Made by a program: the position numbers and the translations under genes. This document shows, piece after piece, positions 23,199 through 42,541 of a DNA stretch of 47,612 nt. The stretch comes from Oscillatoriales cyanobacterium PMM_0080 (GTDB lineage Bacteria; Cyanobacteriota; Cyanobacteriia; Cyanobacteriales; Microcoleaceae). How positions within the stretch are numbered: position 1 is the stretch's first letter; each line of letters opens with the position of its first letter. The stretch is from positions 1-47,612 of the forward strand of contig CASBQF010000263.1 of the NCBI GenBank assembly GCA_949127775.1, in the 5' to 3' direction. A model generated the notes under the pieces. The model was not told the origin of the DNA, made no database searches, and saw nothing but the letters and a program-made list of their open reading frames with translations.

Positions 23199-23332
23199 TG
23201 ATATCAAATCCGGTAGCATCGGAATTATTAGCCAAATTAGGAGACGGCTTGGCCTTAGTCCCTACAATTAATCACGGTAGGGACTAAGGCCAAGCCGTCT
23301 CCTCTATATCATTCCGGTGTAACCGGAAACGA
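23199..23332. repeat. Palindrome-family element with 27-bp perfect arms
   Basis: The inner arms at 23239-23265 and 23277-23303 are exactly complementary over 27 bp with an 11-nt loop (AATTAATCACG). They are flanked by ATATCAAATCCGGTAGCATCGGAATTA on the left and ATTCCGGTGTAACCGGAA on the right. It shares its outer arms with elements at 6875, 17760 and 26063. Confidence 0.85.
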
Positions 23333-26062: not shown

Positions 26063-26386
26063 GAAAGCTAATAACAACTAATATCTATTCCGGCTGCGCC
26101 GGAATGACAAGCGAGGACACGGCAGTGCCGTTTCCCTAGACCCGATTAATTGTAGGGAAACGGCACTGCCGTGTCCTGATTTCGGGTTATATTAATTCCG
26201 ATGCAACCGGAATTTATATAACCCGAAAGCTAATAACAACTAATATCTATTCCGGCTGCGCCGGAATGACAAGCGAGGACACGGCAGTGCCGTTTCCCTA
26301 CACCCGATTAATTGTAGGGAAACGGCACTGCCGTGTCCTGATTTCGGGTTATATTAATTCCGATGCAACCAGAATGGATATAACAA
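26063..26386. repeat. Tandem duplication (162 bp period) of a palindrome-family element
   Basis: Two nearly identical copies, 26063-26224 and 26225-26386. Each contains ATTCCGGCTGCGCCGGAAT, then complementary 25-bp arms built on GGACACGGCAGTGCC and GGCACTGCCGTGTCC, then a TTCCGATGCAACCGGAAT arm. Differences are few (for example CTAGACCC against CTACACCC). A recent duplication is the simplest reading. Confidence 0.9.
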
Positions 26387-38949: not shown

Positions 38950-38963
38950 AGACCGATAGGTCT
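38950..38963. promoter_or_regulatory. Likely TetR operator 1, AGACC-GATA-GGTCT
   Basis: A 5+4+5 palindrome located between the promoter and the ATG of the tetR-type gene, as expected for autorepression. It shares both half sites and part of the flanks (GTCT followed by GT) with operator 2 read on the other strand. Confidence 0.7.
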
Positions 38964-38979: not shown

Positions 38980-39567
38980 ATGTCAAAAGCTCAAGAAACC
39001 AGAGAGAAAATTCTCAGAGAAGCCGCAGCACTGTTCAATCAGTACGGCTACTCGGGTTCTTCTATGTCTGACATCATGCGCGTTACAGGCTTGCAAAAAG
39101 GAGGAATTTACAACCATTTCAAAAGTAAAGATGAGTTAGCCCTGCAAGCTTTTGACTTTGCTGCTGAATGTATGCGCAAAGAATATCTCCGGGCTTTGAA
39201 AGGAAAACACAATTCGGTCGATCGGCTAAAAGCTGTTATATCTTTATTTAGCACGTTTGCCGAAAATCCTCCAATACCCGGCGGCTGTCCCCTGTTAAAT
39301 ACAGCAGTTGAAAGCGATGATGCTCATCCAGCTTTGCGTCAGCGGGTGCAAATAGCAATGGATGGTTGGCGCGCTTTGATTTGCAAAATTATTAACAAAG
39401 GAATTGCTAAAGGCGAAGTTCGAGAAAATGTCGAAGCCGATGTCATCGCAACTATTGTGATTTCCACGCTCGAAGGAGCCGTGATGATGAGTAAACTTTA
39501 CGGAGATGCAATTCATGTCAAGAGAGCCATTGAGCATTTGCACCGATATCTCGACAGTCAACTTTAG
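38980..39567 (+). CDS. TetR family transcriptional regulator
   Basis: A 195-residue dimeric repressor. The start is the ATG at 38980 (MSKAQETREKILREAAALF), the family position for the first helix; an upstream in-frame ATG would place the operator inside the coding region. The helix-turn-helix is GSSMSDIMRVTGLQKGGIYNHFKSKDELAL. The ligand-binding part has a CxL-type motif in GGCPLLNTAVESDD, which resembles the NemR-like branch; Cys94 or so could sense electrophiles, which is inference. Two identical-half-site operators flank the gene. The likely regulated genes are itself and the thioesterase and GST-like genes downstream. Confidence 0.92.
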   Translation: MSKAQETREKILREAAALFNQYGYSGSSMSDIMRVTGLQKGGIYNHFKSKDELALQAFDFAAECMRKEYLRALKGKHNSVDRLKAVISLFSTFAENPPIPGGCPLLNTAVESDDAHPALRQRVQIAMDGWRALICKIINKGIAKGEVRENVEADVIATIVISTLEGAVMMSKLYGDAIHVKRAIEHLHRYLDSQL

Positions 39568-39593
39568 AACCGGATTTTTTTTTGTTATCAAAC

Positions 39594-39607
39594 AGACCTT
39601 TCGGTCT
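39594..39607. promoter_or_regulatory. Likely TetR operator 2, AGACC-TTTC-GGTCT
   Basis: Same half sites and spacing as operator 1; read on the minus strand it is AGACCGAAAGGTCTG against AGACCGATAGGTCTG upstream. It lies 26 bp after the tetR stop, before the MITE and the thioesterase gene. Confidence 0.65.
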
Positions 39608-39711
39608 CAAAAGAGCAATTTCTCCTCGCTACTACTGTACGTTCGCTCATTTTGATCGACTGATCGGAATTATCTACCAGAGAATAGGCATTACAGACAT
39701 CAAGAAAATTG

Positions 39712-39740
39712 TTGACATACCTCGAAATATGTGCATATAT
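39712..39740 (+). promoter_or_regulatory. Promoter-like site inside the MITE
   Basis: A perfect TTGACA (39712-39717), 17-bp spacer and ATATAT (39735-39740), pointing to the thioesterase gene 190 bp away. Confidence 0.5.
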
Positions 39741-39770
39741 CCCTGCTTGATTAAGTGGCTCTAGTCAGAG

Positions 39771-39804
39771 ACAATATCACGCTATATATAGCGTAATATT
39801 GTCA
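39771..39804. repeat. 17-bp near-perfect palindrome inside the MITE
   Basis: GACAATATCACGCTATA / TATAGCGTAATATTGTC, with one mismatch between the arms and no loop. It could be a stem in RNA or a protein-binding site. Confidence 0.65.
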
Positions 39805-39927
39805 GATATTAATTCTTGAGACACTAGAAAAAATGAGCGAACGTACAGCTACTAGGCTCTATCTTCAATTTTCCTCCCCAAGCGAGGCAGTTTTGCAATC
39901 ATTAAAAATAGACTGAGAGTACCCAAA

Positions 39928-40353
39928 ATGCAAGCATCCAGCGAACAGAAAAGACCTTTGGAAATAGAATTAAGCTTTCCCGTACAAACTTACGATATCG
40001 ACTTTGCGGGAATCGTCAGCAATATTGTTTATATCCGCTGGTTGGAAGACTTGCGGATCGCACTTGCTGATGCTTATTTTCCAGTACAGAAAATGCTAGA
40101 AAATGGTGTAGCTCCGATGTTGGTAAAAACAGCAATTGAATACAAGCAGCCGATTAATATTTTCGATAAACCAACTGGTAAAATTTGGATGAGTAAAATG
40201 AAATCGCTCAAATGGATGATGGATGCTGAAATAATTGTAGCTGGTAAAGTCGCTGCCATCGCCCAACAATCTGGTTGTTTTATTGAACTATCAACTCGCA
40301 AACCAGTGGCGATTCCATCTGAGTTTTCTGAAGCATACTTTGCACAGCGGTAA
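39928..40353 (+). CDS. Acyl-CoA thioesterase (hotdog fold, 4HBT type)
   Basis: A 141-residue hotdog protein. The 4HBT signature is VQTYDIDFAGIVSNIVYIRWLEDLRIAL at about 19-46, with the catalytic Asp in DIDFAGIV. Later strands are VKTAIEYKQPINIFDKPTGKIWMSK and AEIIVAGKVAAIAQQSGCFIELS. The enzyme hydrolyses an acyl thioester; its acyl chain is unknown. It follows tetR and precedes the GST-like gene, both plus strand, so it is a candidate target of the regulator. Confidence 0.88.
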   Translation: MQASSEQKRPLEIELSFPVQTYDIDFAGIVSNIVYIRWLEDLRIALADAYFPVQKMLENGVAPMLVKTAIEYKQPINIFDKPTGKIWMSKMKSLKWMMDAEIIVAGKVAAIAQQSGCFIELSTRKPVAIPSEFSEAYFAQR

Positions 40354-41243: not shown

Positions 41244-41846
41244 TCAACTATTTTGCACCATCCAGACAAGCATTCCCAAAATTATCTCAACAGGTGGAAA
41301 TGGATAATCTCTAACATCAATGGTCACAATTTGCCCTTCCAATTTGAGAAATCTCCAAGCAGTGCCGGTAGTTAATGAACCGTAAATGGTCGGAATTGAG
41401 TTACTATTAATTTCATTAAATCTTTGAGCCGCTATCATTTCGGCAATGCACTGTCCCAAACCACTGTTAATGTTATCTCGCTTCGCTTCTACTAACACAA
41501 TAGCTGGTGCTTCTATCTCAAATTGTTCGGGAGAGCGACTAATTAAAAAATCGCAAACTCCATTTAATCCCGCCGCGCTATCGACTGTAAAATCCGTGCC
41601 GGAAAATAGGCTGATTTGGCGGTTTAGCAGTCTTTTTACTTCCAAAAGTACGGGAGCGATGATTGCTTCGGATTTAGCTTTTTCTGTTCCTACTGCGATC
41701 GCCCAAGGCACTGTATCTTCCAACAAACCTGCTAAAATGGCACTGGGTGCGATAGGTTCAACTTCCGGCAAAAAGCGCCCACCTTCAACTGCGGTCAATC
41801 CGAAGCTTTGCTTAACCTTTCGTAGTGTAAAATCGCTGTATTCCAT
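41244..41846 (-). CDS. Conserved hypothetical protein, PD-(D/E)XK nuclease-like (copy 1)
   Basis: A 200-residue protein. Start ATG at 41846 (MEYSDFTLRKVKQSFGLTAVEGGRFLPE); an upstream TTG adds three residues only. The conserved pattern GVCDFLIS (Asp about 98), then 20 residues to IVLVEAKRDN with the EXK (about 118-120), then GLGQCIAEMIAAQRFNEIN resembles the D-EXK-Q series of PD-(D/E)XK folds such as the HsdR N-terminal domain. No partner subunit is nearby. It is divergent from copy 2 with a 92-bp gap; the two align without gaps over 200 residues at about 60 percent by eye. Confidence 0.7.
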   Translation of the reverse strand: MEYSDFTLRKVKQSFGLTAVEGGRFLPEVEPIAPSAILAGLLEDTVPWAIAVGTEKAKSEAIIAPVLLEVKRLLNRQISLFSGTDFTVDSAAGLNGVCDFLISRSPEQFEIEAPAIVLVEAKRDNINSGLGQCIAEMIAAQRFNEINSNSIPTIYGSLTTGTAWRFLKLEGQIVTIDVRDYPFPPVEIILGMLVWMVQNS

Positions 41847-41938
41847 GATTTTCAAATTTAACCAGGAATGTGCGCATTGCGCAACCTACGTTTGTTGAAC
41901 TATTCATAAAATTATATCAATAAAATAGGTAATGTTGA

Positions 41939-42541
41939 ATGTCCTACAGTGAATTTACGCTTAAAAAAGCTAAACGGGATTTTGGCTTAACAACCGTAGA
42001 AGCAGGGCGATTTCTGCCGCCAACTGAGCCGATCGCTCCTAGTGTATATTTGAGTGAATCCTTAATTGAAGGATTGCCACTGGCTACAGCTACGGGTTCA
42101 GAAAAAGCGCGATCGGAACTGATTATTAGTCCAATTTTAGTCGAAGTCAGAAAGATTTTACTGCGGCAAGTGAGTCTATTTTCTGGAGAAGATTTTACTG
42201 TAGAGCCGGAGTTGGGATTGAGCGGAGTTTGCGATTTTTTAATTAGTCGCTCTCCCGAACAAATATTAATCGAAGCGCCCGCGATTGTGATTGTTGAAGC
42301 GAAAAAAGCCGATTTAAAAGTTGGTTTGGGACAGTGCGCGGCCGAAATGGTGGCGGCTCAAAAGTTTAATGAAATTAACAATATTGCGATCGGCACAATC
42401 TACGGAAGTGTCAGCAGCGGTACTGCTTGGAGATTTTTGAAGTTGGAGGAAAAAACTCTGACAATTGACCTCAATGACTATGCTGTGCCACCTGTGGAGC
42501 CGTTGCTGGGGATGTTGGTGTGGATGGTTCGCGATGGTTAG
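41939..42541 (+). CDS. Conserved hypothetical protein, PD-(D/E)XK nuclease-like (copy 2)
   Basis: A 200-residue paralogue of copy 1 on the opposite strand: MSYSEFTLKKAKRDFGLTTVEAGRFLPP, with SGVCDFLISRSPEQ, IVIVEAKKADLK, GLGQCAAEMVAAQKFNEIN and the shared C terminus LGMLVWMVRDG. Both copies keep the D, EXK and Q positions, so both look intact. The head-to-head arrangement suggests an inverted duplication. Nuclease activity is inferred from the fold pattern only; cyanobacterial genomes carry many such unnamed proteins. Confidence 0.7.
   Translation: MSYSEFTLKKAKRDFGLTTVEAGRFLPPTEPIAPSVYLSESLIEGLPLATATGSEKARSELIISPILVEVRKILLRQVSLFSGEDFTVEPELGLSGVCDFLISRSPEQILIEAPAIVIVEAKKADLKVGLGQCAAEMVAAQKFNEINNIAIGTIYGSVSSGTAWRFLKLEEKTLTIDLNDYAVPPVEPLLGMLVWMVRDG

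Follow-up and report, generated by a model that had tools for sequence, protein, structure and literature searches.

The closest described systems are archaeal. In Methanosarcina, MITEs are associated with insertion sequences (ISs) of the IS1634 family: the ISMba11-type MITE of Methanosarcina barkeri measures 247 bp (IR 20, DR 6) and is present in 23 copies, and the ISMac10-type MITE of M. acetivorans measures 249 bp (IR 18, DR listed as 0) and is present in 15 copies; in the representative alignments, resemblance to the partner IS is confined to the IR borders (PMC3852290, in the portions of the paper available to us). Among cyanobacteria, Microcystis has an ISL3-type MITE together with a moving 1,746-bp IS1634 element (available part of PMC11448079). 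In Anabaena sp. 90, 147 complete or partial MITEs occur beside the IS1634 element ISAsp5 and are termed type II, since they show no evident similarity to the inverted repeats of the resident ISs, as far as the accessible text of PMC3542288 goes. The Correia elements of Neisseria lie near genes and carry a promoter-like motif inside, as does the MITE described here; the promoters of Correia elements have been tested, whereas our element shows a -35-like motif alone (comparison drawn from part of PMC10969869).

We focus here on a 214-bp element in a 47,612-nucleotide stretch of contig CASBQF010000263.1 of Oscillatoriales cyanobacterium PMM_0080, the whole of which we call the window. Its best explanation, to which we give a probability of roughly 0.93, is a non-autonomous MITE with IS1634-type ends that inserted at (C/T)TACTA in one Microcoleus lineage. 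Since IS1634-type MITEs are already known in archaea, the window MITE belongs to a known kind. Like the Methanosarcina MITEs, it is associated with IS1634, and the ISMba11-type likewise has a DR of 6; those MITEs, on the other hand, are archaeal and have an assigned IS partner, whereas the window MITE is cyanobacterial, is an orphan in its genome and has a core that recurs across genera (same portions of PMC3852290). What was an orphan repeat now has a named mobile-element family. Genomes are designated below by our G numbers.

Anatomy of the element and its empty sites

The element and its parts are as follows, with strands in brackets:

39635 to 39848 (+): MITE with IS1634-type ends, 214 bp, recognised from sequence, homologues and empty sites
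39635 to 39653 (+): left terminal inverted repeat (TIR), 19 bp, the same as both TIRs of an IS1634-family IS in G319
39830 to 39848 (-): right TIR, 19 bp, the exact reverse complement of the left TIR
39629 to 39634 (unstranded): left 6-bp target duplication CTACTA, a single TTACTA in the empty alleles of G008 and G011
39849 to 39854 (unstranded): right 6-bp target duplication CTACTA, from sequence and empty alleles
39676 to 39696 (+): asymmetric core motif, consensus ACGANNNAATNNGGGTTNNAG, with 3 mismatches in the window copy
39712 to 39717 (+): TTGACA, a -35-like motif conserved in a related sub-family, with no good -10 after it
39770 to 39803 (unstranded): 34-bp palindrome with TATA|TATA at its centre; relatives carry the related ACACTATATATAGTGT

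The TIR sequence is CTGTACGTTCGCTCATTTT, exact over 19 bp at both ends, and CTACTA adjoins both flanks, as the original prediction had it; the TTGACA and the palindrome that were claimed for the interior are also present, the palindrome being symmetric at 32 of its 34 positions. At 214 bp, the element is under 500 bp and contains no transposase gene, and the one ORF of at least 60 aa that overlaps it (39582 to 39764, 60 aa) starts outside the element. Shuffling the bases of the window 20 times produced no exact 19-bp inverted pair 60 to 2000 bp apart. Unshuffled, the window contains further such pairs, mainly hairpin repeats at about 26114 to 26339 and an inverted gene pair; among the 16 inverted pairs listed for the window (arms of at least 15 bp), the MITE alone is flanked by identical hexamers. 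A search of Rfam at E up to 1 returned a single match, of sub-gathering score and outside the MITE.

The strongest indication of insertion comes from relatives at the same locus. Used as a query against 29 genomes of the genus (own included), the region from the TetR gene to the thioesterase gene found matches in 11. The site comparison is drawn from G008, G011, G017 and G026; the other matching genomes G001, G002, G004 and G015 were left out of it, and G023 and G009 are uninformative on the site because their neighbours are different. In G008 and G011, the empty site reads TCG-TTACTA-GGCTC, with both flanks on one contig, one hexamer and no element, and the single hexamer thus shows that the window element arrived by insertion, duplicating 6 bp of its target. 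Counted by hand, the distance from the putative operator 2 (see below) to the ATG is 320 bp in the window versus 100 bp in G008, a difference of 214 + 6. G017 (contig C36) and G026 also have no MITE at the window-equivalent site. The assignment to MITEs made in the original prediction is hence upheld by the perfect TIRs, the target duplication, the empty sites and the homologues at other loci.

A separate observation concerns the site itself. In G017 (contig C36, locus L015) and G026 (L013), a different palindromic insert of about 30–40 bp lies at the equivalent of window position 39849; in G017 it reads approximately TTACTAGGATCTGCCTAGTAACGCAGATCCGG and adjoins the target hexamer used by the window MITE. 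The target site seems to have been struck twice, by the MITE in the window and by the palindromic insert in G017 and G026.

No second copy of the MITE was found in its own genome (6.36 Mb, a draft of 431 contigs), where the one additional match was to the palindrome within the MITE, and among 58 other relatives searched, G017 alone has a matching element, a 212-bp homologue of 73% identity at a different locus, flanked by TGATTA and TCATTA. Dispersed copies at unrelated sites thus exist across genomes, in G017 and others, with one copy in the own genome; the search for copies with different hexamers that had been proposed was in this way successful, at other loci in other genomes. A lone copy in the genome and presence of the element at this locus in all relatives had been named as observations that would speak against a MITE: the copy is indeed the only one found in its genome, but the locus is without it in G008, G011, G017 and G026. 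An exact 18-mer scan of genome contigs gave 16 matches. The one in Microcoleus (L051) corresponds to the copy in G017, and 15 are in records titled as organisms outside the cyanobacteria (one merely as 'uncultured bacterium') and were taken as chance by title. There were no exact 19-mer matches in viral contigs and no plasmid match at E 0.01.

IS1634-family insertion sequences and the ends of the element

At E 0.01, a phylum-wide BLAST with the 214-bp query had matches, most of them short and weak, in 16 of 386 genomes, counting its own; G149 and G319 proved to have the identical TIR, and these two matches were taken further. In G319 it belongs to an IS (L063, 3972 to 5715) of 1744 bp enclosed by two TIRs, each 19/19 identical to the window TIR, and with a split transposase, whose two ORFs match the NCBIfam model NF033559 (IS1634 family) at 109.6 and 99.2 bits, the cut-off being 100. 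This IS has itself no matching target duplication. An IS with the same TIR, which the original prediction suggested looking for, is thus in hand. With the first G319 transposase piece as query, 49 of 388 Cyanobacteriales genomes were matched at E 1e-10, and both ends could be placed for 19 ISs out of 30 loci fetched. The tip of these 19 IS1634-family ISs is CTnnnnGTTCGCYCATTTT or near; exact 6-bp duplications flank 11 of them and are missing from eight, in agreement with the prediction that the parent transposase makes 6-bp duplications. The closest intact IS1634-family transposase encountered is of the G645 type, with ends that differ from those of the window MITE by 2 mismatches each.

The Cyanobacteriales ISs share this TIR and the 6-bp duplications with the MITE. 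The 19 measured, on the other hand, are 1.06–2.2 kb long and carry a whole or broken transposase (NF033559), whereas the MITE has none and differs in its interior. The parent can thus be named to type, as the IS1634 family, and none of the ISs examined is recognisable as the source of the MITE interior.

The IS1634-family model gave no match to a transposase in the own genome at E 0.001 (draft of 431 contigs), and Microcoleus is absent among the 49 genomes matched by the transposase piece at E 1e-10. With no IS1634 transposase found in its own genome or, in the sets searched, in its genus, the window copy looks orphaned, within the limits of draft assemblies, since an IS could be missing from 431 contigs. 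In the mechanism we propose, an IS1634-family DDE transposase would act in trans by recognising the 19-bp TIRs, and by cutting (C/T)TACTA with a 6-bp stagger, so that the element came to lie between the TetR gene and the thioesterase gene. An IS1634-type transposase, none being detectable in the own genome today, would have moved the element, which would now be immobile.

Related elements across Cyanobacteriales and their core

A pattern of two TIR cores 120–180 bp apart matched 5 of 388 genomes, and the five elements found in this way align end to end, with common inner motifs. Similarity of the interiors is clear for the Microcoleus pair; when the other nine pairs were compared with 300 base shuffles, five were matched by at most 2 shuffles and four by at least 55. 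The DNA of one element has copies or fragments in 5 of the 14 genomes of its family (own genome included). A sequence model, R1, built from five elements that carry the core, whole or in shifted form, matches 41 of 388 Cyanobacteriales genomes at E ≤0.001, the five training genomes included, and several of these have more than one copy; with the best six candidates per genome scored, it finds at least six separate locations in G523 and as many in G200. Mostly full-length matches among the best six candidates per genome made up a set of 47 extracted elements (40 newly fetched plus 7). Exact 6-bp duplications flank 21 of the 47 and are missing from 26, and three of the 21, in G200, have identical flanks and may be one event. 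Removing six truncated or ill-bounded elements and merging near-identical ones left 26 for alignment.

Sixteen genomes have both a MITE and an IS1634 transposase, versus 5.2 expected (hypergeometric p 4e-6), in a test that disregards phylogeny and assumes the same 388 genomes in both searches. Furthermore, in six genomes for which both were compared, the MITE TIRs are closer to the TIRs of the resident IS than to those of other genomes, with 4 of 720 permutations as low (phylogeny again ignored), and this six-genome comparison suggests that, within each genome, the MITE has ends that match those of its resident IS.

MITEs across the order share an asymmetric core, ACGAnnnAATnnGGGTTnnAG, which lies some 43 bp in from one of the two ends. 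Its consensus, derived from the same 26 elements, occurs within 3 mismatches at position 42–44 in 22 of them, versus 1 of 26 when measured from the opposite end and 16 of 5200 shuffled interiors; in addition to the 22, G567 and G599 have, by eye, the core with a one-base shift. As R1 was trained on core-bearing elements, the frequency of the core among relatives is biased upward. Among the IS ends, the core is absent from 37 of 38, being found in one of 19 left ends (L090, in G652) and none of 19 right ends.

That left end, of an IS1634-family IS at G652:C407, is closer to the MITE left end than to related ISs, and its sequence match to the core hints that ends may have been exchanged between IS and MITE, or that one descends from the other.

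It is conceivable, though on balance we doubt it, that the element is a twig of an old, self-standing non-autonomous lineage present in at least five Cyanobacteriales families, with the core (in part also TTGACA and the TATATA palindrome) under selection and the TIRs tracking the host's IS1634 transposase. If this were true, the core would be a working part, such as a host-factor site, a second site for the transposase or a small transcript, and not leftover IS; an asymmetric core under selection would give a handle on which parts, apart from its ends, a non-autonomous element cannot do without.

Cyanobacteria gain an IS1634-type MITE family and a ready search model. We found no account of this TIR or of a cyanobacterial IS1634-type MITE in the literature covered, which was mostly open-access, with ISfinder and the Anabaena supplementary list outside its scope. 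Nezha is reportedly a small MITE of cyanobacteria, said to have been described by Zhou et al. in 2008. It is cited in the available portions of PMC10969869 and PMC3733652.

An autonomous element behind 68-bp matches in G476 (C1:3325424) and G530 (C94:168201) was considered and rejected, as both places, 12 kb each, hold the same decayed remnant. G476 and G530 have the decayed half of a related MITE at one syntenic locus (L110 3430 and L111 3208). A different IS1634-type MITE is present at L176 (G656:C95:31329-31580) and resembles, by eye, an internal-deletion derivative of the right end of an IS.

Neighbouring genes and alternative readings

The insertion lies between a regulator gene and an enzyme gene:

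38980 to 39567 (+): TetR-family regulator (Pfam PF00440, PF16925)
39594 to 39607 (unstranded): palindrome AGACCTTTCGGTCT, a putative TetR operator 2 by its sequence, 21 bp upstream of the target hexamer
39928 to 40353 (+): thioesterase-like gene (4HBT_2, Pfam PF13279), downstream of the insertion

A GST-like protein is encoded after the thioesterase-like gene. AGACC-N4-GGTCT has two exact sites in the window, one before the TetR gene (38950 to 38963) and the other between the TetR and thioesterase genes; when one mismatch is allowed, 23 of 100 shuffles have at least two matches. By eye, the putative operator 2 is kept as AGACC(T/G)TTCGGTCT in G008, G011, G017, G026 and G009. Relative to the empty allele, the insertion does separate this putative operator from the thioesterase gene, as had been claimed, and the locus thus offers a naturally occurring insertion that parts a putative repressor site from the gene it presumably controls. 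As for the thioesterase, the insertion would probably have lengthened its leader or displaced its promoter, an effect not owed to selection.

The original prediction went further in proposing that the element could supply the promoter of the thioesterase gene, and the element might accordingly have been retained as a mobile promoter, with the TTGACA at 39712 driving the thioesterase and freeing it from the TetR repressor. The motif is present and points toward the thioesterase gene, it is exact at position 77–80 in 12 of the 26 non-redundant elements, and promoter-carrying MITEs are reported elsewhere, for example the Correia elements (available part of PMC10969869). However, no hexamer at spacings of 15–19 after TTGACA scores above 4/6 versus TATAAT, a consensus promoter scan returned 0 promoters, and the palindrome and the TIR stand between TTGACA and the thioesterase gene. 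Nor is there an orientation bias: for the 21 of 47 elements with usable flanks (at least 400 bp), genes nearest on the right-hand side, counted up to 500 bp away, have the direction of the element in nine cases and the opposite direction in nine. The lack of a -10 partner, the empty scan and the even orientation leave promoter supply unproven, so that promoter donation is possible but unsupported, and we consider retention as a mobile promoter unlikely. The altered TetR regulon that the original prediction derived from it is likewise unproven.

There are two further alternatives. The palindrome, centred on TATATA, appears to resemble the NrdR box, and the element could be a regulated cassette in which the palindrome is the operator for a host regulator. 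A palindrome like ACRCTATATATAGYGT (at most 2 mismatches) is indeed found in 13 of the 26 elements, 59–60 bp (11 elements) or 69 bp (two) before the right tip, but it is missing in the other half. Compared with 200 shuffles, none was as good in the window and G476, and 1 to 28 were elsewhere when it is the best palindrome; in the remaining elements, another palindrome equals or beats the TATATA-centred one, or the latter is missing. When up to 2 mismatches to ACACTATATATAGTGT were allowed, the MITE was the sole match in the own genome; the NrdR-box reading was therefore set aside, and a regulated cassette seems to us highly improbable. The whole structure might also be a chance or fold-driven inverted repeat, that is, a hairpin rather than an insertion, given the good folding of the strand (z -5.3 and -7.7) and the other hairpin repeats in the window. 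The empty sites, which have a single hexamer, refute this, and it is at odds with the homologues elsewhere with different hexamers, leaving it a negligible chance. An inserted MITE with IS1634-type ends is the reading that we retain.

The window has several other inverted structures. At 26114 to 26339, there is a tandem pair of a hairpin repeat (AGGACACGGCAGTGCCGTTTCCCTA...) with arms of 25–27 bp, the two being 162 bp apart, and another hairpin, of a different sequence, lies at 23239 to 23303. Two similar ORFs, at 41244 to 41855 on the minus strand and 41939 to 42541 on the plus strand, share a 39-bp identical inverted arm (41523 and 42262), and the pair, as read from its sequence, is apparently an inverted gene duplication.
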